A stretch of 54,097 bases of DNA, taken from positions 1 to 54,097 of the forward strand of contig PFUL01000113.1 in NCBI GenBank assembly GCA_002790095.1, written 5' to 3'. The translations under genes were made by a program, and so were the position numbers. Shown here piece by piece: positions 16,167 to 31,894 of the stretch. How positions within the stretch are numbered: position 1 is the first letter of the stretch; each line of letters starts with the position of its first letter. The notes below the pieces were generated by a model, which saw only the letters and a program-made list of their open reading frames with translations, was not told the origin of the DNA and searched no databases. This DNA comes from Elusimicrobia bacterium CG_4_9_14_3_um_filter_62_55. GTDB taxonomy: Bacteria > Elusimicrobiota > Elusimicrobia > UBA1565.

Positions 16167-17411
16167 ATGCTGTATTTAAAGAACGCCTCCTTTCTGGACT
16201 GGAACACCCTCAGGATGCGTTCGGGGACGCTCGCCGTGGAACCAGGCCCGTCCGGACGCGCGCGTTTTCTCAAGCGTCTCCCCCCCGGCGCGCGCGCGCT
16301 CGACTGCGCGGGAAAAATCGTCACGAAGTCTTTCGCGATCGGACACCATCACGTCTACTCCGCGCTCGCGCGGGGCATGCCGGCGCCGCCGCGCTCTCCG
16401 AAGAGCTTCGTCGACGTCCTGAAGATGGTCTGGTGGCGGCTGGACAAAGCCCTCGACCGCGAAATGATCCAAGCCTCCGCGCTCGCCGCCGCGGTGGAAG
16501 CCGCGAAGAGCGGAGCGACCTTCGTGATCGACCACCACGCCTCCCCGAACGCCGCGCCGGCGAGCCTGCACCTGATCGCCGAGGCCTTCGATCTCGTCGG
16601 CGTCTCGCACCTCTTGTGCTATGAACTCTCCGACCGGGACGGCACGCGCCGGAGTCAGCAGGCCCTCGAGGAAACCGATCGATATCTCGAACGCCGGCAG
16701 GGGCTGGTCGGACTGCACGCTTCCTTTACCGTCGGCGACGAACTCCTGCGCCGCGCCGCCGCCGTCGCCGAACGCCATGAGACGGGTTTTCACGTCCACG
16801 CGGCCGAGGCCGCCTCGGACGAGGAGGACTGCGTGAAGCGCTGCGGCATGCGCGTGCTGGAGCGTTTCTCCCGCCGCGGAATCCTCGACTCTCCGAAAAC
16901 GATTCTCGCCCACGGGATTCACTTGAACGCGAAAGAGCGCGCCCTGTTCCGGAAATCCAAGGCGTGGCTCGTTCAAAACGCCGAAAGCAACCTAAACAAC
17001 GCGGTCGGCCTCTTCAACGATGCGGGGCTCGGCGACCGGCTCTTCCTGGGCACCGACGGCATGCATGCGGACATGATCGCCTCCACGAAGGCGGCGTTTC
17101 TCACCGCTCCCGCTCTCTCCCCGCTGGGCGCCTATCGCCGCCTGCGCCGGGTGCACGACTATCTCGATTCGAACGGCTTCGAGGGCGACGGGGAGAACAA
17201 CCTCGTCATCCTCGACTATCGGACTCCGACCCCGGTCACCGGCGCGAACTGGCCGGGGCATTTCTGCTACGGACTCTCGCGCGCGCACATAGAATCCGTC
17301 ATCTCCGACGGCCGCCTGATCGTCGATCGCGGACGCGTGACGAGGGTCGACGAAGAGAAAGTCTACGCGTACGCCCGGGAGCAAGCGAAACGGTTATGGA
17401 AGAAACTCTAA
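16167..17411 (+). CDS. ssnA: SsnA-like aminohydrolase
   Basis: A 414-residue amidohydrolase-superfamily enzyme of the SsnA type, expected to deaminate or hydrolyse a nitrogen heterocycle in the cytoplasm. The N-terminal metal motif is unusually His-rich (AIGHHHVYSALARGMP). Other metal ligands are likely in FHVHAAEA, ILAHGIHL and LGTDGMHADM. Family members are typically encoded beside xdhD and ygfK, as here. A GGAG Shine-Dalgarno overlapping the end of the preceding gene supports the ATG at 16167. The stop lies 15 bp inside the next gene. Confidence 0.87.
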   Translation: MLYLKNASFLDWNTLRMRSGTLAVEPGPSGRARFLKRLPPGARALDCAGKIVTKSFAIGHHHVYSALARGMPAPPRSPKSFVDVLKMVWWRLDKALDREMIQASALAAAVEAAKSGATFVIDHHASPNAAPASLHLIAEAFDLVGVSHLLCYELSDRDGTRRSQQALEETDRYLERRQGLVGLHASFTVGDELLRRAAAVAERHETGFHVHAAEAASDEEDCVKRCGMRVLERFSRRGILDSPKTILAHGIHLNAKERALFRKSKAWLVQNAESNLNNAVGLFNDAGLGDRLFLGTDGMHADMIASTKAAFLTAPALSPLGAYRRLRRVHDYLDSNGFEGDGENNLVILDYRTPTPVTGANWPGHFCYGLSRAHIESVISDGRLIVDRGRVTRVDEEKVYAYAREQAKRLWKKL

Positions 17412-18667
17412 GCGGCGCAAGAATCGACCCCAAACGGCTGTACGCCTCTCTGGAGGAACTCGGCGCCGTGGGCGCCTATGACGACGAGGGTTCCGGACTC
17501 AAAGGCGTCAACCGCCTCGCGCTGACCGACGCGGAACGCGACGGACGCGCGCTGGTTGTCCGGTGGTTTAAAGAGGCCGGGCTCGAAGTCTCGATCGACG
17601 CCATCGGCAACTGCTACGCCGAGCGCCCGGGCGCCGTCGCGGGGTCCGCGCCGGTGATGATGGGTTCGCATATCGATTCGGTCCCGACCGCCGGCCGTTT
17701 CGACGGCTGTCTCGGCGTGCTCGGGGCGCTGGAAATTATCCGGACCCTCGACGCCCGCAAAATCAAAACGAAGCGCCCGATCGTCGCCGCGTTCTTTACC
17801 GACGAGGAGGGCTGCCGCTTCGGAACCGACATGCTCGGATCGGCGGTCGCGACCGGCCGCATCCCGCTCGATGAGGGCTACGCGAAGACCGATCGCGACG
17901 GCCTCACGGTCAAGGCCGAATTGGAGCGCACCGGGTTCCTCGGTTCGGAACCCATCGGACTGCGCAAGCCGCACGCCTATTTGGAATGCCACATCGAACA
18001 GGGTCCCGTGCTGCGGTCCAAGAACCTCGACCTGGGCGTCGTCACCGGCGTACAGGCGATTTGCTGGCACGAGTTGGAAATCCGGGGGCGCTCGGCGCAC
18101 GCGGGAACGACTCCGATGTCCTACCGCAAGGATCCGGGAGTCGCCGCCGCAAAGATCAATTTGAAACTGCGGGAGATGACCGCCTCCGGGGAATTCGGGC
18201 CCGACATGCGCGCGACGATGGGCGTGATCCGCCCGGTCCCGGGCATGATCAACGTGGTCCCTGCCCGGGTCGTCTGCTCGGCGGATCTGCGCAACCCCGA
18301 CGACGACGCGATGGCACGCCAAGAAGCGGCTCTGATCGCGTACTACAAGCAGGTAGAAAAGGAAGAGGGCGTCGAGATCCGCTGGAAGCGCAGCGCGCAG
18401 ACGCCCCGCATCCGCTTCGACGCGTCGGTGCAGGAAACAATCGCCGACGCCGCCGACGCGCTCAGACTCTCGCATGAGCGCATCCTCTCCGGTGCCGGTC
18501 ACGACGCGCAGGAGTGGAGCCGAATCTGCAAAACCGCGATGATCTTCGTTCCCGGCGAATACGACGGGATCAGCCACAACCCGCGCGAATACTCGACCGA
18601 GAAGCAATGCTCCGACGGCATCTTCACCGCGTTGATCGCGCTGACCGCGCTGGCGAACGAGGACTGA
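17397..18667 (+). CDS. M20-family hydantoinase/carbamoylase-type amidase
   Basis: A 423-residue zinc amidase of the N-carbamoyl-amino-acid hydrolase/allantoate amidohydrolase group. Metal ligands are visible in MMGSHIDSVP, AGRFDGCLGV, TDEEGCRFG, the substrate-side ECHIEQGP and the C-terminal SHNPREYS. It would hydrolyse ureido or carbamoyl groups released by purine-ring opening, with ammonia and CO2 as products; the exact substrate is not predictable. The start ATG at 17397 overlaps the ssnA end by 15 bp and the stop (TGA) is immediately followed by the next ATG, so it is tightly co-translated. Confidence 0.87.
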
Positions 18668-19573
18668 ATGAAGGCCGCGCTGACCCAGACGGTGAACGCG
18701 TTTAAAGACATGCCCGAACGCGTGAAGGATCTCTCACGCCTCGCGGGCCGGCTTGAGGAAATCCGCGCGGCGAACATCGAGCATCACGCCGAACTGATCA
18801 AGTCCGCCGCCCTTCAAGGCGCCGAAGCCGTCTGTCTCGGAGAACTCTTCGCCGCCCCCTATTTCGCACTCGATAAAAATCCGATGTGGCTGGGCCTGGC
18901 CGAAGACGCGCTCGAGGGCCCGAGCACGCGGGAACTGATCAAGATCGCGAAGACGCATTGGATCGTCATCGTCGCGCCGATCTTTGAACGCGACGCCGCC
19001 ACCGGAAAGCGCTACAACACGGCCGTCGTCATCGACGCCGACGGATCGGTGCGCGGACGCTACCGGAAATCGCACATTCCCTGCGGCGTCAACGACCAAG
19101 GGGAATTCCACGAGACCTTCTACTACGGCCCCGGCGATCCACTCGAAGGCGAGCCGCATTTCCCGGTGTTCGAGACCCAGGTCGGCCGCATCGGCGTGAA
19201 CATCTGCTACGACCGCCACTTCGAAGGGGTGGTCGCGGCGCTTAAAGCCGCCGGGGCGCAGTTGATTTTCTCGCCGGCGGTCACGTTCGGGGAGAAGTCC
19301 CGCCGGATGTGGGATTTGGAATTCAAGGTCGACGCCGCGCGCCATCGGGTCTTCATCGGCGGCTCCAACCGCAAGGGCCGCGAGGCGCCGTGGAATCAGG
19401 ACTACTTCGGCGATAGCCACTTTTGCGACCCGGACGGCAGACGCCTGCCGGATCTTTCCGAGAATCCGCGGGTCGTGATTTCGGAACTCGACTTGGGCGT
19501 TCTCTCCGAGCCCGACCCTTCCGGCTGGGATCTCGCGCGCGATCGAAGGCCGGATATTTACCGAAAGTCGTAG
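18668..19573 (+). CDS. Nitrilase-superfamily amidase, beta-ureidopropionase-like
   Basis: A 301-residue carbon-nitrogen hydrolase with the full catalytic set: Glu in CLGELFAAPYF, Lys in YRKSHIPC and nucleophile Cys in NICYDRHFEG. Closest in style to N-carbamoyl-beta-alanine/putrescine amidases. It is the last gene of the catabolic operon and starts directly at the preceding stop. A diverged duplicate of its last ~90 codons is found at 21447-21721, so this locus has been duplicated and rearranged. It originally may have faced ygfK tail-to-tail; the hipBA island now follows its stop. Confidence 0.9.
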   Translation: MKAALTQTVNAFKDMPERVKDLSRLAGRLEEIRAANIEHHAELIKSAALQGAEAVCLGELFAAPYFALDKNPMWLGLAEDALEGPSTRELIKIAKTHWIVIVAPIFERDAATGKRYNTAVVIDADGSVRGRYRKSHIPCGVNDQGEFHETFYYGPGDPLEGEPHFPVFETQVGRIGVNICYDRHFEGVVAALKAAGAQLIFSPAVTFGEKSRRMWDLEFKVDAARHRVFIGGSNRKGREAPWNQDYFGDSHFCDPDGRRLPDLSENPRVVISELDLGVLSEPDPSGWDLARDRRPDIYRKS

Positions 19574-19603
19574 CGCCGATCGCGCCGAGCTCCCAGGTTC
19601 AAA

Positions 19604-19699
19604 TTAGAGCACTTTTATGGACTTGACAAGAATATTTTGTCACGATATTATTATTCTATATAAGACAATTATAGTCGCAAAACATTATAAGTGTTCTAA
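19604..19699 (+). promoter_or_regulatory. AT-rich hipBA promoter/operator region with inverted repeats
   Basis: The region is strikingly AT-rich compared with its flanks. It holds TTGACA at 19623, several TATTAT/TATATA -10 candidates, the imperfect 17-bp palindrome GACAAGAATATTTTGTC, and an outer inverted pair. The outer pair is TTAGAGCACTTTTAT at 19604 against ATTATAAGTGTTCTAA at 19684 (about 13 of 17 matching by eye). This is the layout expected for autoregulation by a HipB dimer; binding is inferred. Confidence 0.55.
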
Positions 19700-19710
19700 A
19701 TAGATAGTTA

Positions 19711-20034
19711 ATGAAAGAGATATCCAACCCCGAAGAACTGGCGCAAGCGATCGGAGAAAACATCCGATCGCTCAGGCTCCAGAAGAACCTCACTCAAAAA
19801 GGACTCGCCGCTCGCGCTGGAATCAGCATGACCGCGCTGCGGCATCTCGAGTCGGGTCAAGGAGCGAATTTGGGATCGCTCATTCGCGTTGTCCGAGCCT
19901 TGGGCAAACAGGAATGGCTCCAGGCACTGGCCCCGCAGGTCTCCATCAACCCGCTGCACATGACGCCGACGCTCGCGAAGCGCCAGCGCGCGCGCACGAG
20001 CCGAAAGAAGAGGGCTCATGGCCAAGAAGGCTAA
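19711..20034 (+). CDS. hipB: HipB-like XRE-family antitoxin/repressor
   Basis: A 107-residue helix-turn-helix protein: IRSLRLQKNLTQKGLAARAGISM is the HTH, followed by TALRHLESGQGANLGSLIRVV, the usual XRE continuation. The basic C-terminal tail (KRQRARTSRKKRAHGQ) may contact DNA or HipA. It should bind the palindromes just upstream and hold the HipA kinase in check. The stop lies 17 bp inside hipA, so the pair is translationally coupled. Confidence 0.88.
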   Translation: MKEISNPEELAQAIGENIRSLRLQKNLTQKGLAARAGISMTALRHLESGQGANLGSLIRVVRALGKQEWLQALAPQVSINPLHMTPTLAKRQRARTSRKKRAHGQEG

Positions 20035-21337
20035 GCAGCCGAAGTCCGAACGCTACCGCCCCGTACAGCGAATCGAGGTCTACGCCTGGGACTTCTTCGT
20101 GGGCGCCCTCGCGCTTGATCCCAAGCTCGGCTATTACGTCTTCGCCTACGACAAAACCTTCGGGCGAGCGGGGATTCAACTCGCGCCGATCCATTTGCCC
20201 GCCGACGACTCGGAGCGAGTCTTCGTCTTCACCGATCTTCCGGAGGCGACCTACCGCCGCCTGCCGGCGATGCTCGCCGACGCGCTGCCGGACGACTTCG
20301 GCAACGCGCTCATCGACAAGTACATGGCTGAGCGTGGTCTTCCAAAGTCGCAGATCACTCCTCTCGATCGCCTTGCCTACATGGGCAAGCGCGCCATGGG
20401 AGCCCTCGAATTTAAGCCCGCGCGCGGTCCGCAGATGGAGAATCCCACCGCTCTTGAGATGGGCCAACTCGTCTCGATGGCCCGGAAAGTCGTGACCGGC
20501 AATCTCCAAGAGGAATCCACCGCGGAGGCCGCGCTTCGCAGCATCATCGAGGTCGGCACCTCGGCGAACGGCGCGCGAGCCAAGGCCGTCATCGGCTGGA
20601 ACCGCCGGAGCTCGGAGATCCGCTCAGGCCAATTCGCGCTCCTTCCCGGATTCGAGCACTGGCTCCTCAAGTTCGACGGCATGGGCGAAGACCGAGAGCT
20701 GGGCCAATCTCAGGACTTCGGCCGGATCGAGTACGCCTACTCCCTGATGGCCAAGCAAGCCGGCATCAATATCCCGGAGTCCCGGCTGCTCGAAGAGAAC
20801 GGCCGGGCCCACTTCATGACCCGACGCTTCGACCGCGAGGACGACGGCACGAAGCACCACCTTCAAAGCCTCTGCGCCATGGATCACCTCGACTTCAAGA
20901 AGAAATCAGCCAACAGCTACGAGCAGCTCTTCCTGACGATGCGCCAGCTCAATCTGGGCCATTCGGCGGACCTCGAGGCTTTCCGGCGCATGGTCCTCAA
21001 CGTCATGGGCCGCAACTGCGACGACCATACGAAGAACTTCTCGTTTCTGCTCAGAAAAGGCGGCCCCTGGGAACTGTCCCCGGCTTACGACATCACCTTC
21101 GCGCACAACCCGAAAGGCGAATGGACCCGCCGGCATCTGATGTCGGTCAACGGGAAGTTCGGCGACATCTCCAAAGAGGATTGCCTGGCCCTCGCGGATC
21201 GCTTTGCGATCGGGGAAGCTCCCTCGATCCTCAAGCAAGTCAGGGAAGTCGTCGAGGCCTGGCCGGTCTTCGCGGCCCAGGCCAAGGTCGCGGCAGGCGA
21301 GATCAAGCGCATCCAAGGAAATCTGCGGCCTCTCTAA
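20018..21337 (+). CDS. hipA: HipA-like serine/threonine kinase toxin
   Basis: A 439-residue HipA-family kinase. The N-terminal subdomain is VYAWDFFVGALALDPKLGYY. The catalytic core shows NVMGRNCDDHTKNFSF (catalytic Asp/Asn loop) and LSPAYDITFAHN (metal-binding Asp). HipA of E. coli phosphorylates a tRNA synthetase and causes growth arrest; the target here is unknown. The sequence looks full length and intact. Remarkably, a tRNA 3'-end sequence starts at the very next base after its TAA stop. Confidence 0.9.
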   Translation: MAKKAKQPKSERYRPVQRIEVYAWDFFVGALALDPKLGYYVFAYDKTFGRAGIQLAPIHLPADDSERVFVFTDLPEATYRRLPAMLADALPDDFGNALIDKYMAERGLPKSQITPLDRLAYMGKRAMGALEFKPARGPQMENPTALEMGQLVSMARKVVTGNLQEESTAEAALRSIIEVGTSANGARAKAVIGWNRRSSEIRSGQFALLPGFEHWLLKFDGMGEDRELGQSQDFGRIEYAYSLMAKQAGINIPESRLLEENGRAHFMTRRFDREDDGTKHHLQSLCAMDHLDFKKKSANSYEQLFLTMRQLNLGHSADLEAFRRMVLNVMGRNCDDHTKNFSFLLRKGGPWELSPAYDITFAHNPKGEWTRRHLMSVNGKFGDISKEDCLALADRFAIGEAPSILKQVREVVEAWPVFAAQAKVAAGEIKRIQGNLRPL

Positions 21338-21361
21338 GCGGGTTCAAATCCCGCCCCCGCA
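21338..21361 (+). other. tRNA 3'-end fragment (T-arm plus acceptor strand), possible attachment-site remnant
   Basis: GCGGG-TTCAAAT-CCCGC forms a perfect 5-bp T-stem with a canonical 7-nt T-loop, followed by CCCCGCA as a 3' acceptor strand. No D-arm or anticodon arm precedes it, because hipA coding sequence ends at the previous base. Such 3' tRNA fragments are what site-specific integration into tRNA genes leaves behind. No integrase is present, so the attachment-site reading is inference. Confidence 0.6.
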
Positions 21362-21371
21362 CAAAACAGCT

Positions 21372-21454
21372 ATCGCCGCGCGGATCCGCTCGAACAGGAA
21401 GTAGAAGGTCAGATCGACCTCGCCCGAGGCCTCGCCTTCGGCCGTCCCCGCCGG
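21372..21454 (-). pseudogene. Remnant of a second ygfK copy (3'-terminal piece)
   Basis: This 83-bp stretch matches 27837-27919, near the 3' end of the ygfK-like gene, with a single mismatch by eye and in the same orientation. The final ~37 bp of the gene, including its stop, are replaced by the tRNA fragment on the left. On the right it runs without a gap into a nitrilase remnant, sharing CCCGCCGG at the joint. Too short to be functional. Confidence 0.8.
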
Positions 21455-21721
21455 ATGTGGGATCTCGAATTCCGGGTGGACGCGGCGCGGCACAAGGTTT
21501 TCATCGGCGGCTCCAACCGCAAGGGCCGCGAGGCGCCGTGGAATCAGGACTACTTCGGCAAAAGCCACTTTTGCGACCCGGACGGCAGGCGCCTGCCGGA
21601 TCTCTCCGACGACCCGCGGGTCGTCGTCTCCGAATTGGACCTAGAATCCCTTTCGCGCCCCGACCCTTCCGGCTGGGATATCGCGCGCGACCGAAGACCG
21701 GATATTTACCGGGCGTTGTAG
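21447..21721 (+). pseudogene. Remnant of a second nitrilase gene (3' third)
   Basis: Encodes about 90 residues closely matching the C-terminal third of the nitrilase at 18668-19573 (shared blocks FIGGSNRKGREAPWNQDY and DPSGWDIARDRRPDIYR). All three catalytic residues lie in the missing part. The copy is diverged overall, roughly 17% at DNA level by eye, but contains a stretch of about 60 identical bases, suggesting gene conversion. An internal Met gives an open frame from 21455, but it has no start signal. Confidence 0.85.
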
Positions 21722-22023: not shown

Positions 22024-23340
22024 ATGCACCCCTTCGCCCAGTATTCTCAATACCTCGAAAGTCTCTATCTTGAATCCAAACTAAACGGATTCAACTCTGA
22101 CAGAACCCGCGCGATCAAATTAAGCCTTGATGGGCAACCAAACAGGCTCCTTGAGTTGTGTGTTGATTTAAACATCCGTAGAGATTCTGGAGCTTTTTTC
22201 ACGGGCTCCCGCCTCCGCGCAGATTTACTGGAACCATTTTTGCAGCAGATTTCCACCGGCCGGATGCGAGCAATTGACCCTGCCTGCGGAGCAGGCGATT
22301 TACTCTTGGAATACGCAAAGTATCTCCCAACGCGCGAAACACTTTCTGAAACCATTGAATTTTGGAGCACGCTGCTCGCTGGTTTCGACATCCATAAACA
22401 ATTCGTTGAAACAGCCAAGGTAAGGCTCCTGCTTCTAGCGATGTCTCGGACGAGGGCTTTTGACTTTTGCCTAGATTCGCTAAATGACTCCTTGCAAAAA
22501 ATAAGAACGTCCAACTTCCTCAACCAAAAGTCCAAATCTATTGATGCCGACATCATTTTGATTAATCCGCCATTCCAATTAGTTTCTACGGGCACTAGAT
22601 TTAAATGGGGGAAAGGACTCGCGAGCAACGCCGCGGTATTTGTTGATCGATGCATCACCAAGTCCAACTTCGGAACTAAAATCGCTGCCATTCTTCCAGA
22701 TGTCTTGCGCACCGGCTCCAGATACGTAAAATGGCGGGAAATGGTTCAAAAATACTGCCAGATTGATGGGATTCAAATTGACGGTCGATTCTCCACCCTG
22801 GCCGACGTCGATGTCTTTCGGCTTTATCTTACTGTTGGGGCTCCTCACATATCTGCCGGTACGGATTGGTGGAGGATAGGAAAACAAGCAAGTTCTAGAA
22901 TTAAAAAGACTCGCGAAGCGTTTGAAGTTCATGTTGGCCCCGTTGTCCCACATCGCCATCCACGCAAAGGAACTCTACTCCCTTATCTGGACACTCGCTG
23001 CACCCCCCCAGGCAAAGTCCTCAAAAAGCTATCTAAGACCAGACGATTTCAAGGCCGAACATTCTGCCCCCCTTTCGTAGTTTTGCGACGCACGTCAAAC
23101 CCGAGTGATTCGAATAGACTACAACCATCTCTTGTCCCACGAGGTGGGCCAACGGCAATCGAAAATCATCTACTCGTAATGCTGCCGAAATCCGGTCTTA
23201 TTAAAGACTGTCGCGCTCTCATGTCATTTCTAAAGAGCGAGCAGGCTCGGAATTGGATTAATACGCGGATTCGATGCCGGCATTTGACCACTGTTGCCGT
23301 TGGGGACCTTCCTCTCCCGAAAAGGCTATTCAAACCATGA
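22024..23340 (+). CDS. N6-adenine DNA methyltransferase (gamma-type, HsdM/Eco57I-like)
   Basis: A 438-residue AdoMet-dependent methyltransferase. Motif I is DPACGAGDLLLEYAKYLP (residues 85-102) and the catalytic motif IV is INPPF (NPPF, residues 181-184), which defines N6-adenine or N4-cytosine methylation and here resembles N6-adenine enzymes. The N-terminal RRDSGAFFTGSRLRADLL is typical of type I/IIG 'N-6 DNA methylase' families. The C-terminal ~200 residues probably recognise the target. Base composition is clearly AT-richer than the flanking chromosome, indicating transfer. Its stop overlaps the ATG of the GHKL ATPase gene (ATGA), so it heads a co-translated cassette. It lacks a nuclease or helicase domain. 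Confidence 0.86.
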   Translation: MHPFAQYSQYLESLYLESKLNGFNSDRTRAIKLSLDGQPNRLLELCVDLNIRRDSGAFFTGSRLRADLLEPFLQQISTGRMRAIDPACGAGDLLLEYAKYLPTRETLSETIEFWSTLLAGFDIHKQFVETAKVRLLLLAMSRTRAFDFCLDSLNDSLQKIRTSNFLNQKSKSIDADIILINPPFQLVSTGTRFKWGKGLASNAAVFVDRCITKSNFGTKIAAILPDVLRTGSRYVKWREMVQKYCQIDGIQIDGRFSTLADVDVFRLYLTVGAPHISAGTDWWRIGKQASSRIKKTREAFEVHVGPVVPHRHPRKGTLLPYLDTRCTPPGKVLKKLSKTRRFQGRTFCPPFVVLRRTSNPSDSNRLQPSLVPRGGPTAIENHLLVMLPKSGLIKDCRALMSFLKSEQARNWINTRIRCRHLTTVAVGDLPLPKRLFKP

Positions 23341-25547
23341 GCGCCAAAAACAAGGCATCGTTGTTCTTCAAAGTAGACGCTCGAGCGATTATCCGCCTCG
23401 GCCGCGATAGCATCAGGGATAACACGACGGCCCTGCTTGAACTCGTGAAGAACAGCTACGACGCCGACGCAACGGAAGTCGAAATTGAAATTTTCACCAA
23501 CGTGGCAAAACCCTACATCCGGATCGCGGATAACGGCGTTGGAATGTCGGAAGTGGAGCTTGAGGAAAACTGGCTACGAATTGGATTTTCTGGAAAGACG
23601 CAATCAAAACGAACCGCTTCAAAGCGGAGAAAGACTGGCGAAAAGGGGATAGGACGCCTTTCGGCTGACCGGCTAGGATCAAAACTCGAATTGAGGACGA
23701 AGGCAGCACAATCCTCACCAGTAGGACTATCGGTGAACTGGGATAATTTCGATGTCGACGACAGAACGATCGAGTCTGTCGGAGTTGAACTTGTACGGAA
23801 TCAGGCTCCAAGGACCCCAAAAAATCGGCGGAGCTCCGCAGGCTCCGGAACCGAACTGATTATACGCGAACTGCGCCAAGCCTGGACCGCGGAAAACCTG
23901 CACAACCTATATCTAGAATTGTCGACTCTAATCGCGCCAATTCTTTCAGTCAGCAATTTCCGGATTTTTCTCAGCTCGGATGCGTGGAAAAAGAAGCGCT
24001 CCGAGGTTCAAACAGCATTCCCAGAAACGGCTCAGCTGGAGCTTGACGCCGTCTTCAATGGTGCAAAACTCAACTACAGCATAACGGAGCGGACTGCACG
24101 CCAAAAAGTCATTCGGCCAAACGAAGAAATTTCCTGGAAGAAGCTGGTTCAGCACGCCGACCAGCCTGGGGGCGAGGGACGCTCAAGCAAGCCTAAGCTA
24201 GGAGATGTCCGCATTAAGTTGCTTTTCTTTGTCCAGAGAGCCCCGACGTTTTCAGAATCTGAATTTAGCCTTGCAGATATTCGGCGTTTCTTACAACTGC
24301 ATGCAGGTATTAAGATTTATCGTGACGGAGTCATGGTCAAACCTTATGGCGATTTGCGTGATCCACAAGGAGATTGGCTTCTTCTGGCGCAAAGGCGGTC
24401 TAGGGACCCTGCCGGGGTGGGTCGAAAGACATACAAGATCGCTCCTAATCAGCTGGTTGGAGCCGTGTTACTTGGACGAGATTCAAACCCTAAAATTGCA
24501 GACAGCACTTCTCGCGAAGGCTTAATCAAAAGCCAGGAATTTTTTGATTTGCGCGCTCTAGTCCTGGGTGCGATTGGCATCCTGGAATCGTACCGCCACA
24601 GGACATACAAAGACACGAAGCGAATTCAAGAACCGACACAGGCCGCTCGCGAGGCAGTGCAAGCTGCGAATGAACAGGTGAAGGCGCTTCGGTCAAATCT
24701 TCAAGCGCTAAAAAAGGAAATCCCCAGCAGCGCGCTACGACCGATTGAGAAAATTTCAGATCGGGCCGCCGTAGCCCTCTCAGCCCTGTCCACAGCAGAA
24801 AAGTCTGTGCAGGCGCTGATTGGACACTCCTCCCTTTACCGGGGCCTTGCTACGATTGGAATCGCCTCTGCGGTCTTCGGGCATGAGACACAGGCATCGA
24901 TCGATGAATTTTCGAGCGCACTGCAAGCTGGCGTCGCACAGTTAAATCGAAAACCGCCACAAATTCGACGTGCTCTAACGGAATTCGAAAAGGCTTCGAA
25001 ATATTCGGATAGGGTGGCGGCATGGGGAGCCTTTGCTCTAGCACGAGTCCAACATGAGAAGCGACAAAAGAAGCGGCGCGACTTAAAACCTCTGCTATCA
25101 GAACTTCTCGAGCACCTACGGCCCGTTTTCGATGCTTCGACAATATCCCTTGAATATGACTTGCATGAAATTAACGCGAGGATTTTTGAAATGGATATCG
25201 AGGCCATCCTCCTAAATCTTCTAACCAATGCCTATCATGCGTGCAGACTCGAGGACCGTCCGCGCAAGGTATTGGTGAGTCTGCGCGCCAAATCCCACGA
25301 TTCAATTAAGGGATTGGAGCTGTCGGTAGCCGACTCGGGACCGGGCATCGCAGAAGAATTTAAAGACAAAATCTGGGAACCGCTGTTTTCAACCAGATTG
25401 GACCGCGAAGGGCGACAAATAGGGACAGGCCTAGGACTTACAATTGTCAAATCGATTTGCGACGACCTAAATGGTGTCACGAACCTTAAAGACAGCAGCG
25501 CGCTTGGTGGGGCGGAATTCAGTGCGTGGCTTCCTTTGGAAACATGA
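23337..25547 (+). CDS. Large protein with two GHKL ATPase domains (MORC/Hsp90-like plus histidine-kinase-like)
   Basis: A 736-residue soluble protein. The N-terminal domain has a GHKL ATP site in Hsp90/MutL/MORC style: ALLELVKNSYDADATEV (about residues 33-49), IADNGVGMS (about 65-73) and GEKGIGRLSADRLG (about 102-115). A charged coiled-coil stretch follows (AAREAVQAANEQVKALRS). The C-terminal part looks like a complete histidine kinase: GIASAVFGHETQASIDEF with candidate phospho-His516, ILLNLLTNAYHACR (N box), VADSGPGI and GTGLGLTIVKSI. No membrane segment. It is co-translated with the methyltransferase (ATGA) and sits 3 bp before a receiver-like gene. It could sense DNA or phage state and phosphorylate the receiver; this is inference. 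Confidence 0.85.
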   Translation: MSAKNKASLFFKVDARAIIRLGRDSIRDNTTALLELVKNSYDADATEVEIEIFTNVAKPYIRIADNGVGMSEVELEENWLRIGFSGKTQSKRTASKRRKTGEKGIGRLSADRLGSKLELRTKAAQSSPVGLSVNWDNFDVDDRTIESVGVELVRNQAPRTPKNRRSSAGSGTELIIRELRQAWTAENLHNLYLELSTLIAPILSVSNFRIFLSSDAWKKKRSEVQTAFPETAQLELDAVFNGAKLNYSITERTARQKVIRPNEEISWKKLVQHADQPGGEGRSSKPKLGDVRIKLLFFVQRAPTFSESEFSLADIRRFLQLHAGIKIYRDGVMVKPYGDLRDPQGDWLLLAQRRSRDPAGVGRKTYKIAPNQLVGAVLLGRDSNPKIADSTSREGLIKSQEFFDLRALVLGAIGILESYRHRTYKDTKRIQEPTQAAREAVQAANEQVKALRSNLQALKKEIPSSALRPIEKISDRAAVALSALSTAEKSVQALIGHSSLYRGLATIGIASAVFGHETQASIDEFSSALQAGVAQLNRKPPQIRRALTEFEKASKYSDRVAAWGAFALARVQHEKRQKKRRDLKPLLSELLEHLRPVFDASTISLEYDLHEINARIFEMDIEAILLNLLTNAYHACRLEDRPRKVLVSLRAKSHDSIKGLELSVADSGPGIAEEFKDKIWEPLFSTRLDREGRQIGTGLGLTIVKSICDDLNGVTNLKDSSALGGAEFSAWLPLET

Positions 25548-25550
25548 GAT

Positions 25551-26204
25551 ATGCCAACCCTTGCAATCATAGATGATAGAAAGAATATTCGGGAAACTCT
25601 GGAGAACCTGATCAGTCCCATCCTACCCCCAAATTGGACCACATTAGCGTGCGCGCCTTTAGAAAAATTATCGGACTATGCGAGTTGGATTCTGGAAGAG
25701 GAAATATCGTCCATTATTGTCGATCAACAACTCGCCGATGAAGCCCTTCCTTCCGGAAAGGCCATTCGCTACACGGGTACCCAATTTTGCCACAGCATTC
25801 GTCGACAGTTTCCGACACTTCCGGTCTACTTGATAACCAGTTATTCAGGCCCCGCAGCATCTAAGGATCGCTCACAGTTCGAAGAAACTTTTGAGCGCGG
25901 TGAGTTTCGGCGTGATGTTGCCGTTCATGTTGAAAGAATTGTTAGGGCAGCCCGGCGCTTTTCAGAGGACTTCGAGAAAGATCTGTCGGTACTCGCCGCT
26001 AATTCCCGGAAAATTGTCCAAGGGAAAGCAAAAGCATCTGATCGGCGCGAGATGGATGCGATCCGAGCGAAACTCCAAATCTCCTTTCCAACCGAAGGAA
26101 TCGAATCACGATCCAAATGGATCGAGTCTTTTAGTTCTACCGTAAACCAATTATCAACAATCACAACTGAAATTCAGAAGGAATTAAACAAGCGATCCAG
26201 TTGA
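25551..26204 (+). CDS. Receiver-like response regulator with helical C-terminal extension
   Basis: A 217-residue protein. The first ~120 residues fit a divergent CheY-like receiver: LAIIDDRKNIRETL (acidic pair at 8-9), SSIIVDQQLAD (candidate phospho-Asp58) and VYLITSYSG (switch Ser/Thr). The remaining ~95 residues are helical and charged (RFSEDFEKDLSVLAANSR) with no known DNA-binding motif, so output is likely through protein contact. It lies 3 bp after the dual-GHKL gene and overlaps the HNH gene by one base, making it the link between sensor and nuclease. Receiver assignment is by motif reading and moderately sure. Confidence 0.7.
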   Translation: MPTLAIIDDRKNIRETLENLISPILPPNWTTLACAPLEKLSDYASWILEEEISSIIVDQQLADEALPSGKAIRYTGTQFCHSIRRQFPTLPVYLITSYSGPAASKDRSQFEETFERGEFRRDVAVHVERIVRAARRFSEDFEKDLSVLAANSRKIVQGKAKASDRREMDAIRAKLQISFPTEGIESRSKWIESFSSTVNQLSTITTEIQKELNKRSS

Positions 26205-26857
26205 TGAAGTGGCTCAAGATTGATAAGTCCTCCAAATCCAAACCCCGCGGATCCAATTGGCGGAAATGGAAAGACCGCCTCGCTGAGGAGGGTCGATTTC
26301 AATGCGTCTATTGTGCCATCCCCGAATCCTCTTTCGGTGGAACTAGAAATTTTCACGTTGAGCACTACAAGCCAAAATCGCGATTCCCATCACTCGCCAG
26401 CTCTTATAACAATCTCTTCTATTCATGCGCCATTTGCAACACCTTCAAAGGAAATGACTGGCCGGGAAACCCAAATACGAGGCTCTCAAACCCCGCCTAC
26501 GCGAATCCCTCGATAAAAGATTTTAATTCACTATTCTCAATAGATCCGACAACGCTAGAAGTTTCCGGGAACTCGCAATCTCCTCGGTACATGATCGAGA
26601 AACTCTATTTGAATCGCCCGCAGCTAATTCAGGAACGCCAAATCGACCGCGGGCTTAAATTACTTTGTGAGCAAGGTGAACTATTGCGCCATCTGATGTC
26701 TCGGATGGCATCAGCCAGAATGTCGCGCAAGTTAGTTGTCCTACTATCAAAGGCAGTAAATATTCAGACACAACTAAATGACCTACAACGCGATCTCAGG
26801 TCCACACGCCCATACACTTCGAAACAAGTCAAGAAAGGGACGCGAAAGAAAAAATAG
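26204..26857 (+). CDS. HNH endonuclease
   Basis: A 217-residue protein with an HNH/zinc-finger nuclease core near the N-terminus: RFQCVYCAIPE (first CxxC), NFHVEHYKPKSRFP (His of HNH), YNNLFYSCAICNTFKGNDWP (Asn and second CxxC). The C-terminal half is helical and very basic at the end (KQVKKGTRKKK), probably DNA-binding. ATG 26204 overlaps the previous stop; TTG 26201 is an alternative start. As the last gene of the cassette it is the likely effector or restriction nuclease opposed by the methyltransferase. Confidence 0.85.
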   Translation: MKWLKIDKSSKSKPRGSNWRKWKDRLAEEGRFQCVYCAIPESSFGGTRNFHVEHYKPKSRFPSLASSYNNLFYSCAICNTFKGNDWPGNPNTRLSNPAYANPSIKDFNSLFSIDPTTLEVSGNSQSPRYMIEKLYLNRPQLIQERQIDRGLKLLCEQGELLRHLMSRMASARMSRKLVVLLSKAVNIQTQLNDLQRDLRSTRPYTSKQVKKGTRKKK

Positions 26858-26884
26858 GGATGCGATTGGTGGATCCAAGAATGA

Positions 26885-26917
26885 GAAATTCACGTCGCTG
26901 GGACAGACCGGAACGCA
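26885..26917 (-). pseudogene. Remnant of ygfK ferredoxin-motif sequence
   Basis: Thirty-three bases match 28301-28333 in the ygfK-like gene at 29 positions by eye, in the same orientation, and still read CVPVCPSDVNF, compared with CVPVCPNDANF in the intact gene. Flanking similarity fades quickly. It lies just outside the 3' edge of the AT-rich cassette. Confidence 0.6.
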
Positions 26918-27015
26918 GGCGAAAACCCCAAATAGAGATTTTCGGTTCCGAGAAGCTTCTACCCCGCACGCATGGGACCGCTCTTGCCCTGATCGAAAAG
27001 GCCTGTTACACTCAG

Positions 27016-27021
27016 TATAGT
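27016..27021 (+). promoter_or_regulatory. Probable -10 box for the nucleotidyltransferase pair
   Basis: TATAGT lies about 30 nt upstream of ATG 27052, which has no Shine-Dalgarno. No convincing -35. Confidence 0.35.
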
Positions 27022-27051
27022 TATGAGTCTTCGTTTCTCCACGAACCCATG

Positions 27052-27273
27052 ATATTTCGATTGCGCAAGGATATCGGTCGACGGGTGCCGACGAAGAGAA
27101 CGCAGGCCCAGCAGGATGCCGAAGAACTCGCCTACTGGCTCTCTCGCTCCGCGGAAGAACGCGCCGATGCCGTCGGCTTTTTGACGCGCCGTCGCCATTT
27201 TCTGCAGACCGGTCGCGCTTTGCCGCCGCTCGACAAGAGGGTCGGCCGCCGTGTTCGCGCGAACGATGCCTGA
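27052..27273 (+). CDS. Small basic protein upstream of nucleotidyltransferase
   Basis: A 73-residue protein, rich in Arg (RLRKDIGRRVPTKRTQ) with a predicted helix EELAYWLSRSAEERADAVGFLTRRRHFL. The pattern 'W-x-x-R-S-x-E-E-R' is common in small partners encoded immediately before AbiEii-like nucleotidyltransferases. Start at ATG 27052 is chosen because the longer frame from 26860 runs through pseudogene-like sequence. The stop overlaps the ATG of the next gene, indicating a coupled pair. Confidence 0.6.
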   Translation: MFRLRKDIGRRVPTKRTQAQQDAEELAYWLSRSAEERADAVGFLTRRRHFLQTGRALPPLDKRVGRRVRANDA

Positions 27274-27736
27274 GCAGAACATTCACGACGATTTCGTCGC
27301 CTTCCTCAAAATTCTCAACAAGCACGAAGTGGAATACCTGGTGATCGGCGGTCACGCCGTCGGCTTCCACGGGCGGCCGCGCGATACCGGGGACATCGAC
27401 ATCGTGATCAAGCCGACGCGTGAGAATGCAGCACGATTGGTCCGCGCCGTGAGCGCTTTCGGCGCGGGCGGCCTAGGCTACACCGAGGACGATTATCTCT
27501 CGGGCGATTTCATTCAATTCGGAGTCGCCCCGGTAAGAATCGACATAACGATTTTATTCGTAGGCGTCGAATCGGCGGCGCTCTGGGACGAAGCCGTCGT
27601 CGGCCAACTGGGCGGGGTATCCGTCAGGTTTCCCTCGAAAAAATGCCTCCTGGCCAACAAACGCGCCACCGGCCGCCCGAAGGACCTTCGAGACGCGGAA
27701 ACACTCGATCCCCAAGGGCGCGATGCGCTTGAGTGA
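27266..27736 (+). CDS. Nucleotidyltransferase-fold protein (AbiEii/DUF6036-like)
   Basis: A 156-residue protein with the nucleotidyltransferase signature VIGGHAVGFHGRPRDTGDIDIVI, in which GG and DxD form the metal/NTP site. A later acidic residue is likely in PVRIDITILF. Relatives serve as toxins of type IV-like or MNT toxin-antitoxin pairs that modify tRNA or proteins. ATG 27266 overlaps the upstream stop and is preferred over GTG 27251. It ends 63 bp before the convergent ygfK-like gene. Confidence 0.75.
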   Translation: MPEQNIHDDFVAFLKILNKHEVEYLVIGGHAVGFHGRPRDTGDIDIVIKPTRENAARLVRAVSAFGAGGLGYTEDDYLSGDFIQFGVAPVRIDITILFVGVESAALWDEAVVGQLGGVSVRFPSKKCLLANKRATGRPKDLRDAETLDPQGRDALE

Positions 27737-27799: not shown

Positions 27800-29794
27800 C
27801 TAATACTTGATGTAGTTCGCCGCTTCGTCGGAGAAAATCGCCGCGCGGATCCGCTCGAACAGGAAGTAGAAGGTCAAATCGACCTCGCCCGAGGCCTCGC
27901 CTTCGGCCGTCCCCGCCGGGTCCGTCGCGTCGAATTTAACGAGGAAGCCGTCGCCGGCGTAGGAAACCTTCCCGCCTCCGGCGTCGTAGGCGTACACCTT
28001 GCCGTCGACGCGGCCGTGAACCTGCCAGCGGTCACCGTCCTTCTGCAGGAAAAGTCCGTCGCGCCCCTTCGCCGCCTCGAAGCGCTCGAGGGACCCGAAG
28101 AACCGCGGCTTCACTTTATAGGGCCCCCCTTCCTCGGGACAAAACGGATCGCAGTTCCCGCAGTCGTTGCAGAAATCCGCGAAGTTCGCGAGTTGATGCT
28201 TCTTCGTGATTATCAACGCAGGACCGTCCTCGCGGCGAAATCCCCCGTTTTCGGGATGCAGCTTCACGACCGGAACCTCTCCGGCGGAAAGCGGATAGGT
28301 GAAATTCGCGTCGTTGGGACACACCGGGACGCACTTGTCGCAGGTGACGCAGTCAAACAGCGACAGCTTGCTGTCCATGCGCTTGGGCAAGTCGGCGTTT
28401 TTGGCCTGCGCGTAGCGCGGGTCCGACGCCAGACCCGAGGCGTAGCTCTCGGTATTGAGCAGCTTCGCCGCGCTCACCCAGCGGGCGTACTCCGGCGTTC
28501 CCTTCCCCGGCTTCTCGGCGAGCGAAGCCTTCGCGAGCGCCGCGTCCGCGTGTCCGTGCGCGGCGAGGATGAAGTCGGGGATATCCGACGCCCCGCACGC
28601 CTCCATCCGTTTGAGCAGGTCGTCGAAATAGCCGCGCGCGCGGCCGTAGCCGCCGGGCTTGAGCAGATCCGAACAGACCGTCACCGGCGCGAGACCCAGA
28701 GAGACCGCGTCAGGGAAATTAGACCGATCGATTCCGGCCGAGAACGAAATCGGGATGCGGTCCTCGAACACGCCGCGGAAGCGCTTTACCAAATTCATCG
28801 CGATCACGTGCAGCGGCCGGCCCGAGAGATACATCACCTTTTCGGACTTGGGCAAAAACCCCTCGCGGTTCTCGACGATCAGTGTGTTGTTGAACTTCAC
28901 GCCGAAGCCGAGACCCTCGGCCGCGGCGGTCTTGGACAAGCGCTCGCAGAATCCCACGGCGACGTCCCACGTCGCATCGTTTTCAAACGCGCTGTCGGGC
29001 GTGTAGTAATGCTTGTAGCCGAGCGAGTCGTTCATTAAAGCGCGCAGCGCCCCGGGACCCAGCAAGGTCGGGTTCAGCTTGATGATCGAGCTGATCTTCT
29101 TTTCGCGCAGGAGATAATCGACGATGCGTTCGATCTCCTCGGGCGGACAGCCGTGGAAGGTCGAGAGCGTCAACGTGTCGGAAAGCTTGGCTTGAAAGTC
29201 GAGATCCCGGAATCGCTTGAACTCCGTGGGAATCTCCGAGCGGAAACGCTCGATCAGTTCGGACGCGTCGCGCATGCCGTCCAAAAACGCCTGTACCGGG
29301 GCGCTCTTGATGCCCTTGAGGTCGTAGCCGACGCTCATGTCGTAGATCACCGACTCCAGACCGTCGGCCATCGGAAGCTTGCCGCTCGTGCGCAGGATTT
29401 CGATCAGCATCGACGCCTTCGCGTATTCCTCGATGGACTGCTTCAACCGCAGTTCCTGGGACCATTCGACGTTGAAGCCCACGTTGCGCATGTCGATGCA
29501 CGGCCGCGGGATCTCGAGCTCGTCTAGGATCTGCACGGTCTTGAGTTCAATGATCCGCGAACCTCCGAGCCAGGCCAAAACGATGTTCTGCGCGAGTTGG
29601 GAATGCGGTCCCGCCGCGGGACCAAGCGGCGTCGAAGCCTTCTTTCCATGAAAACGGACGGAGAGGTCCTTGCCCTTCGCGTCGCGCAGGAAACTCCGGC
29701 TCGGCAGATCGAAGATCGCGTCGTGGGACTCGATCTCGCGCAGCATCCGCGTCAGGAGTTTCGAAAACGGCCGGGGAATCAGATCGTCAGACAT
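27800..29794 (-). CDS. ygfK: YgfK-like iron-sulfur oxidoreductase, short form
   Basis: A 664-residue protein similar to the 'putative selenate reductase subunit YgfK' family implicated in anaerobic purine/urate reduction. The N-terminal ~430 residues resemble a dihydroorotate/dihydropyrimidine dehydrogenase-type flavin barrel (TPLGPAAGPHSQLAQN, TLSTFHGCPPEEIERI, SFSAGIDRSNFPDAVSLGLAPVTVCSD; pieces read separately). Two ferredoxin clusters follow (CVTCDKCVPVCPNDANF and CNDCGNCDPFCPEEGG). E. coli YgfK is about 1030 residues and has a GltD-like FAD/NAD(P)H domain, which is missing here, so another electron donor is needed. The start ATG at 29794 sits 7 nt after TAGAAT. Two remnants of a second copy lie in the island. 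Confidence 0.85.
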   Translation of the reverse strand: MSDDLIPRPFSKLLTRMLREIESHDAIFDLPSRSFLRDAKGKDLSVRFHGKKASTPLGPAAGPHSQLAQNIVLAWLGGSRIIELKTVQILDELEIPRPCIDMRNVGFNVEWSQELRLKQSIEEYAKASMLIEILRTSGKLPMADGLESVIYDMSVGYDLKGIKSAPVQAFLDGMRDASELIERFRSEIPTEFKRFRDLDFQAKLSDTLTLSTFHGCPPEEIERIVDYLLREKKISSIIKLNPTLLGPGALRALMNDSLGYKHYYTPDSAFENDATWDVAVGFCERLSKTAAAEGLGFGVKFNNTLIVENREGFLPKSEKVMYLSGRPLHVIAMNLVKRFRGVFEDRIPISFSAGIDRSNFPDAVSLGLAPVTVCSDLLKPGGYGRARGYFDDLLKRMEACGASDIPDFILAAHGHADAALAKASLAEKPGKGTPEYARWVSAAKLLNTESYASGLASDPRYAQAKNADLPKRMDSKLSLFDCVTCDKCVPVCPNDANFTYPLSAGEVPVVKLHPENGGFRREDGPALIITKKHQLANFADFCNDCGNCDPFCPEEGGPYKVKPRFFGSLERFEAAKGRDGLFLQKDGDRWQVHGRVDGKVYAYDAGGGKVSYAGDGFLVKFDATDPAGTAEGEASGEVDLTFYFLFERIRAAIFSDEAANYIKY

Positions 29795-29801
29795 AAGGCT
29801 T

Positions 29802-29807
29802 ATTCTA
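29802..29807 (-). promoter_or_regulatory. -10 box of leaderless-type promoter (ygfK-like gene)
   Basis: TAGAAT on the minus strand ends 7 nt before the ATG, with TTGCGC 16 bp further upstream as a -35 candidate. No Shine-Dalgarno. Confidence 0.6.
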
Positions 29808-29875
29808 GCAATGGAATTGCCGCGCGCAACCAGAGAATTCCCGTCTTCCCGGCGGGGATTTCGTAAAACAATTGG

Positions 29876-29881
29876 TATTAT
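29876..29881 (+). promoter_or_regulatory. Probable -10 box of topoisomerase VI operon
   Basis: TATTAT ends 10 nt before the ATG at 29892; the gap has no Shine-Dalgarno. Divergent from the ygfK-like promoter within about 70 bp. Confidence 0.45.
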
Positions 29882-29891
29882 TGGCCCCAAC

Positions 29892-31886
29892 ATGGCGAAG
29901 ACGAAATCAAAACCCAAACAAGTTACGGCCGAAGAGATGGGCGCGAAGCAGCGTTCGATCTCGGTCTCCGAATTTTTCACCAAGAACCGCCACCTGCTCG
30001 GCTTCGACAGCCCCCGCAAGGCGATGCTTACCTGCGTCAAAGAGGCCGTCGACAACGCACTCGACGCGAGCGAGGAAGCGGGCATCCTCCCCGAAGTGCA
30101 CGTGATCATCGAGGTCGTCGCGGATCAGCACGGCCACAAGCTCCCCCCGAGTCAGGCGAAGCGTTTTCGCGTCACCGTCATCGATTTCGGCCCCGGCATC
30201 GTCCGCCAACAGATTCCTCTTATTTTCGCGAAGCTTCTGTATGGTTCGAAGTTCCACCGCCTGCGCATGAGCCGCGGCCAACAGGGCATCGGCATCTCCG
30301 CGGCGGGCATGTACGGCCAGTTGACCACCGGAACACCCGTAAAGATCATCTCGCGCACCGGCGCCAAGTCGCAGGCGCATTACTTCGAGGTCCAGATCGA
30401 CACGAAGAAGAACGAACCCCGCATCCTCGAGAAGAAGCAAATCGAATGGGAGAACCATCGCGGGACCCAGGTCTCGATCGAACTCGAAGGCCGCTACGTG
30501 AAGGGCCGCGCGTCGATCGACGAGTACATCGAGCAGACCGCGATCGCGAACCCCCACGTAAAAATCATCTACGACGCCCCCGAAGGCGAGCGGCGGGTGT
30601 TCGAACGTACGCATCACGAACTCCCGGAACAGCCGCGCGAGATTAAGCCCCATCCCTACGGCATCGAACTCGGCATGCTGCTCAAGATGCTTCACGACAC
30701 GAAAAGCCATTGGCTTTCGGGCTTTCTCTGTTCGGACTTCAGCCGGATCTCGACGAAGCTCGCCGAGGAGATCTGCGCGACGGCGGGGCTAAGCCCCAAA
30801 AAGCGTCCGCGCGACGTGCATGGCCACGACGCCGAGAACCTCTATGAGGCGCTGCAGGAAACGAAGATCATGGCGCCGCCGACCAACTGCATCTCCCCGA
30901 TCGGCGAAAAGGCGATCCTCTACGGCCTCTACCAGCAGATCAAGGGGGATTTCTATACCGCCGTCACCCGGCCGCCGGCGGTGTACCGCGGCAATCCCTT
31001 CGTCATCGAAGCGGGCCTCGCGTTCGGCCGCGGCTCCGAGGAAGAGCAAAAGAAACAAAAGAAGGCGGCGTTCGACGGACCTCTCGCGGAAGGAGAGGGC
31101 AAGGACAAGAACACCGAACTCGCGCGCATCATCCGCTACGCGAATCGCGTCCCCCTGCTCTACCAGCAATCGGCCTGCTCGATGACGAAGGCCGCGCTGG
31201 AAACGGCCTGGCGCAACTACGGCGTCTCGCAGTCCCGGGGCGCGATGCCCGCGGGGCCGATGGTCATCTTCGTGCACATGGCCTCGGTCTGGGTGCCGTT
31301 CACAAGCGAATCCAAGGAAGCGATCGCCGATTACGACGAGATCCGCAGACAGATCAAACTGGCCCTTCAGGAATGCGGCCGCCGCCTCGGCATCTTCCTC
31401 AAGCGCCGCGAGCGTGCGAAGACGGAGTTCCGCCGCCGCAACGTGTTCGAACTCTACATCGAAGAAGTCGCCCAGGCCTGCAAGCGGCTCAAAGGCGGCA
31501 AACTCGCGGTGGAGAAGCTTAAGAAGCAGCTCAACGAGATCGCGACGAAACTGACCGGCGGCGACAAAACGGACGAACTGCTGGGCAAAACTAATACGGG
31601 CCCTCAAGGCCTGCCCTCGTCTATCATCGTCACCGAGGACGGCATCGAAGGCGACGTTCCGCGGCTCGACGCCCCGCCGGAAGACGGCGCCCCGGATCCC
31701 CAGCCGACCGACGCCGCTCCCGCCGAGGAGGCTGAGGAGACTCCGGCGCCGGACCCGGTCCCCCCGAAGAAACCCGCGGCAAAAAAGAAGGCCGCCGAGA
31801 AAAAACCGGCGAAGAAGGTCAAGAAGGCCGCCGCGAAGAAGAAACCCGCTCGCAAAAAATCCGCGAAGAAACGGCTTAAGAAATAG
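29892..31886 (+). CDS. top6B: DNA topoisomerase VI subunit B
   Basis: A 664-residue GHKL ATPase subunit of a type IIB topoisomerase, which together with subunit A passes one duplex through another. The Bergerat ATP site is visible: CVKEAVDNALDASEEAGI, IDFGPGI and RGQQGIGISAAGMYGQ. The transducer region follows (PAGPMVIFVHMASVWVPF). The last ~65 residues are an Ala/Pro-rich linker and a histone-H1-like Lys/Ala tail (AAKKKPARKKSAKKRLKK), probably non-specific DNA binding. Start ATG 29892 chosen because the longer frame reads into the divergent gene. The A subunit follows after 8 bp. Topo VI is typical of archaea and plants and uncommon in bacteria. Confidence 0.93.
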   Translation: MAKTKSKPKQVTAEEMGAKQRSISVSEFFTKNRHLLGFDSPRKAMLTCVKEAVDNALDASEEAGILPEVHVIIEVVADQHGHKLPPSQAKRFRVTVIDFGPGIVRQQIPLIFAKLLYGSKFHRLRMSRGQQGIGISAAGMYGQLTTGTPVKIISRTGAKSQAHYFEVQIDTKKNEPRILEKKQIEWENHRGTQVSIELEGRYVKGRASIDEYIEQTAIANPHVKIIYDAPEGERRVFERTHHELPEQPREIKPHPYGIELGMLLKMLHDTKSHWLSGFLCSDFSRISTKLAEEICATAGLSPKKRPRDVHGHDAENLYEALQETKIMAPPTNCISPIGEKAILYGLYQQIKGDFYTAVTRPPAVYRGNPFVIEAGLAFGRGSEEEQKKQKKAAFDGPLAEGEGKDKNTELARIIRYANRVPLLYQQSACSMTKAALETAWRNYGVSQSRGAMPAGPMVIFVHMASVWVPFTSESKEAIADYDEIRRQIKLALQECGRRLGIFLKRRERAKTEFRRRNVFELYIEEVAQACKRLKGGKLAVEKLKKQLNEIATKLTGGDKTDELLGKTNTGPQGLPSSIIVTEDGIEGDVPRLDAPPEDGAPDPQPTDAAPAEEAEETPAPDPVPPKKPAAKKKAAEKKPAKKVKKAAAKKKPARKKSAKKRLKK

Positions 31887-31894
31887 AGGCGATC

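Follow-up and report, generated by a model that had tools for sequence, protein, structure and literature searches.

A fused ygfK-nitrilase joint in an Elusimicrobia genome: a possible patchwork recombination scar in the guise of a tandem duplication

The window analysed here, a stretch of 54,097 nucleotides, is contig C179 of a draft genome (G000) of 4.3 Mb in 202 contigs that is 95% complete. It carries a purine-degradation cluster made up of genes for an Se-type xanthine dehydrogenase (TIGR03311), an SsnA-like amidohydrolase (TIGR03314), a PALP-family protein, a nitrilase-superfamily amidohydrolase and a convergent YgfK-like protein (TIGR03315), and the cluster ends at a joint where 3′ fragments of its last two genes are fused. 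Together, 16167-19573 and 27800-29797 represent the form that the reductive uric acid cluster takes in Elusimicrobiota; its nitrilase-superfamily amidohydrolase may replace a ureido-cleaving enzyme of the E. coli pathway. The intact genes and the two fragments lie as follows.

18668-19573, plus strand: intact nitrilase-superfamily amidohydrolase (carbon-nitrogen hydrolase; Pfam PF00795, 1.2e-46)
21372-21454, minus strand: ygfK 3′ fragment, a copy of 27837-27919 (82/83 identical)
21447-21454, strand not applicable: 8-bp microhomology CCCGCCGG at the joint, where the matches of both fragments overlap by exactly 8 bp
21447-21721, plus strand: nitrilase 3′ fragment, from about residue 211 to the stop (232/275, or 84%, identical to 19299-19573)
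27800-29797, minus strand: intact ygfK, source of the 83-bp piece (NCBIfam TIGR03315, 1.6e-128, below the cut-off)

The nearest named model of the intact nitrilase is N-carbamoylputrescine amidase (NCBIfam TIGR03381, 2e-48, below the model's cut-off), and its relatives in the PDB are beta-ureidopropionases (6ftq, 6e-39). The open reading frame listed for ygfK, which runs to 30109, is over-extended, the alignment of relatives beginning at about 29797. Genes for topoisomerase VI B and A adjoin ygfK (29670-32995), here in a bacterium.

The nitrilase fragment aligns to the intact gene over 275 bp up to the stop codon without any indel; its frame is intact and free of internal stops, and it lacks the Glu-Lys-Cys catalytic region and so cannot act as an enzyme on its own. 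The ygfK fragment lacks the last 37 bp of its gene, including the stop, and its exact repeats measure 40-42 bp. For random breakpoint pairs in this window, the mean overlap is 0.7 bp and one of at least 8 bp arises by chance with P = 2.65e-4. When a 423-bp joint region was compared with the whole of its own genome, the sole other match was a tRNA-Met gene on another contig, and no further copies of either piece were found in that genome. The succession of the pieces, A - B′ - A′ - B, and the place of the joint, between B′ and A′, are those of a tandem duplication. The original prediction, made from the sequence alone, had read the locus in just this way, as an 83-bp ygfK copy and a nitrilase copy joined at a shared CCCGCCGG, in tandem-duplication order, at microhomology and with cargo in each intergenic gap; the analysis upheld all of these features, and corrected the nitrilase match in two details, its start being at 19299 rather than 19298 and its divergence 15.6% rather than 17%.

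Intact nitrilase and ygfK genes are convergent neighbours in nine relatives, separated by 6-12 bp in three of them (G007, G023 and G050) and by 0.65-3.2 kb holding other genes in the remaining six (G016, G024, G025, G032, G052 and G055), and none of the nine gaps contains a nitrilase or ygfK fragment. The pair is thus native, and its presumed ancestral state is confirmed by comparison of these nine relatives at the locus. Two full-length tandem nitrilase copies occur in no relative, and neither the phylum nor the named genomes searched yielded a closer donor or a congener that has this locus. A genome of the same family, G005, has a second, decaying nitrilase fragment elsewhere (L149, G005:C1, 1-153); it is 91.5% identical to that genome's own gene, carries Ser in place of the catalytic Cys and is fused with a gene of unrelated kind. 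Its similarity to the G005 gene exceeds that to the fragment studied here, so it stems from an independent event. G038 (L067, G038:C65, 1524-3843) is the only relative with a restriction-nuclease-like gene and a HigBA-like pair, recognised by eye, directly behind its nitrilase, a further instance of cargo of this sort at the 3′ end of the gene.

The first gap, between the intact nitrilase and the ygfK fragment, is occupied by a toxin-antitoxin unit and a remnant of a tRNA gene.

19596-19604, plus strand: GGTTCAAAT, first of two direct copies edging hipBA (second copy at 21341-21349; 9-bp match)
19604-21337, plus strand: compact hipBA toxin-antitoxin unit with its promoter (Pfam HTH_3, HipA_C and Couple_hipA)
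21338-21371, plus strand: tRNA-fMet 3′-end scar (30/32 match to the genome's own tRNA-Met locus, G000:C7:7013-7044)

Within the hipBA unit, the HTH antitoxin gene (19711-20034) overlaps that of the HipA kinase (20018-21337). At the DNA level, similarity to hipBA units of other genomes, which lie at unrelated loci, starts at 19604 in the closest relative (86% nucleotide identity) or at 19646, and in the six best relatives it ends between 21274 and 21337, near the hipA stop. Several genomes of other genera and families encode a HipA with 80-89% identity to this one, far above the values for nitrilase or YgfK, from which it follows that hipBA moves horizontally. The GGTTCAAAT repeat, noticed post hoc and with a chance of 0.003 in shuffled sequence, is a possible attachment or target-site repeat.

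The remnant of tRNA-fMet, which the original prediction had overlooked although it stands directly before the ygfK piece, spans 34 bp that comprise the T arm, the 3′ acceptor strand and 10 bp of downstream flank, and it abuts the ygfK piece without any intervening base. Its flank, CAAA(A/G)CAGCT, matches that of the genome's own tRNA and of no other listed genome, and its 21-mer pattern, with up to three mismatches, has one match against zero expected. The scar retains a C-G pair in the T stem, as in relatives, whereas the genome's own tRNA has changed to T-A on both sides, so the scar is either older or foreign. Its make-up is that of a tRNA 3′-end attachment scar, as of an integrative element at tRNA-fMet. 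No intact tRNA marks the other end in the vicinity of 19-28 kb, and no integrase gene is present among the genes between nitrilase and ygfK. The idea that hipBA travels together with the tRNA end was rejected, as other hipBA loci are devoid of it. Half-tRNA-fMet scars of about 39-47 bp, reaching from the anticodon arm, are common in the lineage (G001:C157, G002:C3, G009:C231, G016:C28 and G018:C69), and the series extends to the genome's own contig C7 (L055; 2738-2780 and 7021-7096), where the scar runs into the 3′ part of a gene, at 969-2756, that was identified by eye as coding for a large serine recombinase. This recurrence suggests elements that integrate at the anticodon of the initiator tRNA. 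The scar in the window is shorter than these and begins right after hipA.

The second gap, between the nitrilase fragment and intact ygfK, holds a cassette headed by a methyltransferase gene.

22024-23340, plus strand: N6-type DNA methyltransferase, first gene of the cassette (Pfam PF02384; PADLOC type II MTase; 40% homologue in L125)
23337-25547, plus strand: two-GHKL protein, paraMORC/histidine-kinase-like (N-terminal HATPase_c_3, C-terminal HATPase_c; 53% homologue in L125)
25551-26204, plus strand: receiver-like protein (weak PF00072 match, 7e-4, below the cut-off; same position in two other genomes)
26201-26857, plus strand: PtuB-like HNH endonuclease (PF01844, 1e-6; PADLOC PtuB, 1e-22)
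26860-27736, plus strand: small protein and nucleotidyltransferase-like pair, named by eye, outside the conserved four-gene cassette

The order of the first four genes (22024-26857) is kept in G010 and G018, hence in three genomes in total, at unrelated loci (counterparts at L125 4933-9691 and L126 9609-4614), and the cassette is likely a defence system of known kind. The last two genes are absent from the cassettes in L125 and L126 and match no Pfam or NCBIfam model; a partial copy (83%) lies on the genome's own contig C147 (G000:C147:10498-10608), and the nucleotidyltransferase-like gene and its small partner are probably a toxin-antitoxin pair. Around the methyltransferase cassette there are no flanking repeats beyond chance. 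The two intergenic gaps share no homology, and no duplicated intergenic sequence is left.

The two fragments differ sharply in their history. Of the 43 differences between the nitrilase fragment and the intact gene, 24 fall at third codon positions. The dS is 0.49 and the dN/dS 0.18, a value like that of orthologues from one genus and within the 0.09-0.27 of close orthologue pairs of relatives at that dS. In a simulation of neutral drift of the fragment with the intact gene constrained (a simple codon model, with the central identical block left out), about 43 non-synonymous differences were expected against the 20 seen, and 0/1500 replicates reached a non-synonymous share as low as the one observed. 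In relative-rate counts, the fragment and the intact gene have balanced numbers of unique changes, and this holds for codon positions 1+2 as well. In a tree of the region, the two copies are sisters (bootstrap 100) on terminal branches of nearly equal length (0.091 and 0.086 for nucleotides; 0.096 and 0.098 for amino acids). A dN/dS of 0.18, equal branches, the lack of indels and an intact frame indicate that the divergence accumulated in a functional gene. Judged by its substitution pattern, the fragment is thus what remains of a copy that was functional while it diverged and was cut short only afterwards, rather than of a duplicate left to decay where it stood. At conserved sites it shows two conservative replacements, R to K and L to I, which allow for some late relaxation. 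A 60-bp identical block (permutation P = 0.004) had pointed to gene conversion within the fragment, an idea set aside as unneeded because this central block is unusually conserved between relatives too (e.g., 3 differences in 87 vs. 28 in 174).

The ygfK fragment is 98.8% identical to its intact gene, and the contrast between its 1/83 differences and the 43/275 of the nitrilase piece, an inequality foreseen from the sequence, is significant (Fisher P = 9e-5). Among relatives, pairs of alleles whose nitrilases are about as far apart as these two show 6-23% difference (77-94% identity) in the same 83-bp block. By this measure the ygfK fragment is recent, and one age shared with the nitrilase fragment is incompatible with the data. 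Consequently, the original notion of a truncated copy drifting after one ancient duplication does not survive the dN/dS, the equal rates and branches or the simulation; of its proviso that gene conversion or a second event would be needed, the second event is required and conversion inside the nitrilase is not.

The reading that we favour, with a probability of roughly 0.48, is that the joint is a patchwork scar, left when unequal recombination assisted by microhomology placed two diverged versions of the locus one behind the other. A second, diverged nitrilase version, most likely that of a congeneric strain, would have remained functional until it was cut; its 3′ end would then have been joined to a ygfK 3′ end at the 8-bp microhomology, with the other end of the event in or near ygfK. 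Stacked in this manner, the two versions would imitate a tandem duplication, and the methyltransferase/GHKL/REC-like/HNH cassette would be the cargo carried between them. The hipBA unit and the tRNA-fMet scar would represent a separate insertion into the first gap, through which the ygfK piece lost its terminal 37 bp. Unequal recombination between two locus versions accounts both for a duplication-like order without duplication and for the functional divergence of the nitrilase piece, and the occurrence of relatives of hipBA and of the cassette at unrelated loci of other genomes is in its favour. Against it stand the lack of any donor or congener among the genomes compared and the ygfK piece, which resembles the intact gene far more closely than alleles do at the nitrilase distance; this reading would require either that the 3′ end of intact ygfK be the recipient's own, through a crossover in the last 37 bp or the gap, or that homogenisation took place later.

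The main rival, close behind the patchwork scar and accounting for the same facts, is a recent tandem duplication at the microhomology, along the lines of the original prediction, after which the intact nitrilase was replaced by a congener's allele through homologous recombination, the fragment being the original resident. The pieces stand in precisely the order of a tandem duplication, with an 8-bp microhomology, the ygfK fragment is recent (1/83), the symmetric branches fit a resident and a foreign allele either way round, and the replaced tract could have brought in hipBA and the foreign-looking tRNA scar. We nonetheless consider it somewhat unlikely, for it requires allelic replacement of the intact gene soon after the duplication, with a breakpoint that only a congener would locate, and no duplicated intergenic sequence survives. 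All further explanations rank below these two. The functional-type divergence of the fragment would also follow if two working tandem nitrilase paralogues had stood before ygfK and the second had been truncated by hipBA together with templated filler (34 bp of tRNA and 83 bp of ygfK) through template switching; two short pieces from distant places do abut here, and a second nitrilase fragment exists in G005 of the same family. That fragment is nearer to its own gene, hence independent, and the required paralogue would be unique to the lineage, no relative having two full-length tandem copies, which makes such a history decidedly unlikely.

An error of assembly, i.e., a chimeric join of two strains, is conceivable insofar as a draft in 202 contigs suggests a metagenome assembly, in which strains may be mixed; it is improbable, given that assemblers rarely join at an overlap of only 8 bp, that the exact ygfK repeats reach just 40-42 bp and that the joint lies within a 54-kb contig with further clean junctions. 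Hardly credible is a single ancient tandem duplication followed by neutral decay and by gene conversion of the ygfK piece only, despite the piece order and the microhomology that it would explain: neutral decay is rejected by the simulation, rates and branches are equal, indels are lacking, and the conversion would have to span the entire 83-bp piece yet spare the adjoining nitrilase piece.

The patchwork recombination scar is an event ordinary in kind, and it more likely records mixing with the DNA of a close relative than one ancient duplication. Its value is that of a clean example of how a seemingly ancient duplication is distinguished from a stacking of diverged alleles: the selection under which the nitrilase piece diverged, the equal branches and the unequal ages of the two pieces all argue against simple decay. 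If congeners confirm it, a small defence-like cassette will have entered a metabolic cluster without an integrase of its own; otherwise the joint is an ordinary scar. It is rather doubtful that the nitrilase 3′ flank in Elusimicrobiota serves as an integrase-free landing place for defence and toxin-antitoxin cargo, via microhomology stacking of diverged alleles with fused fragments as the footprint. The broader idea of a defence hotspot was found weak, the gap being empty or filled with unrelated genes in most relatives.

Several known systems resemble parts of this locus. The reductive uric acid pathway comprises YgfK, SsnA and XdhD, homologues of the cluster genes, and SsnA is reported from Elusimicrobiota as well (PMC12507026); YgfK-like, SsnA-like, Se-type xanthine dehydrogenase and PALP-family genes likewise surround the joint, with the difference that a nitrilase-superfamily amidohydrolase of putative role stands at the cluster end. 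The cassette recalls the two-component-like HEF_HK/Response_reg_2 elements found beside restriction-modification genes and the paraMORC ATPases (PMC8011034; PMC2292703), in that the gene for a protein with N-terminal HATPase_c_3 and C-terminal HATPase_c domains lies between a DNA methyltransferase gene ahead and a receiver-like gene behind, with an HNH nuclease gene as well. It differs in that the methyltransferase is of the N6 type, rather than mostly C5, and the HNH protein is PtuB-like; PF19191 and PF19192 (HEF_HK and Response_reg_2) have no match in the cassette at E up to 1, where only the weak PF00072 match is seen.

With microhomology-mediated tandem duplication joints, the locus shares the piece order and the 8-bp overlap, but its two pieces have diverged to very unequal extents, the nitrilase piece under selection. 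The proposed event has a counterpart in homology-facilitated illegitimate recombination (HFIR), described in natural transformation of S. pneumoniae, A. baylyi and P. stutzeri, in which homology anchors one end while a microhomology of a few bp serves to join the other, and which acts on DNA at a divergence of about 15% or more (PMC6382021). The ygfK piece is more alike than that model predicts, and donor, competence and anchoring end are putative here; what the two have in common is a microhomology, here of 8 bp, at one junction and, beyond it, a piece from a diverged, functional source, the nitrilase fragment.
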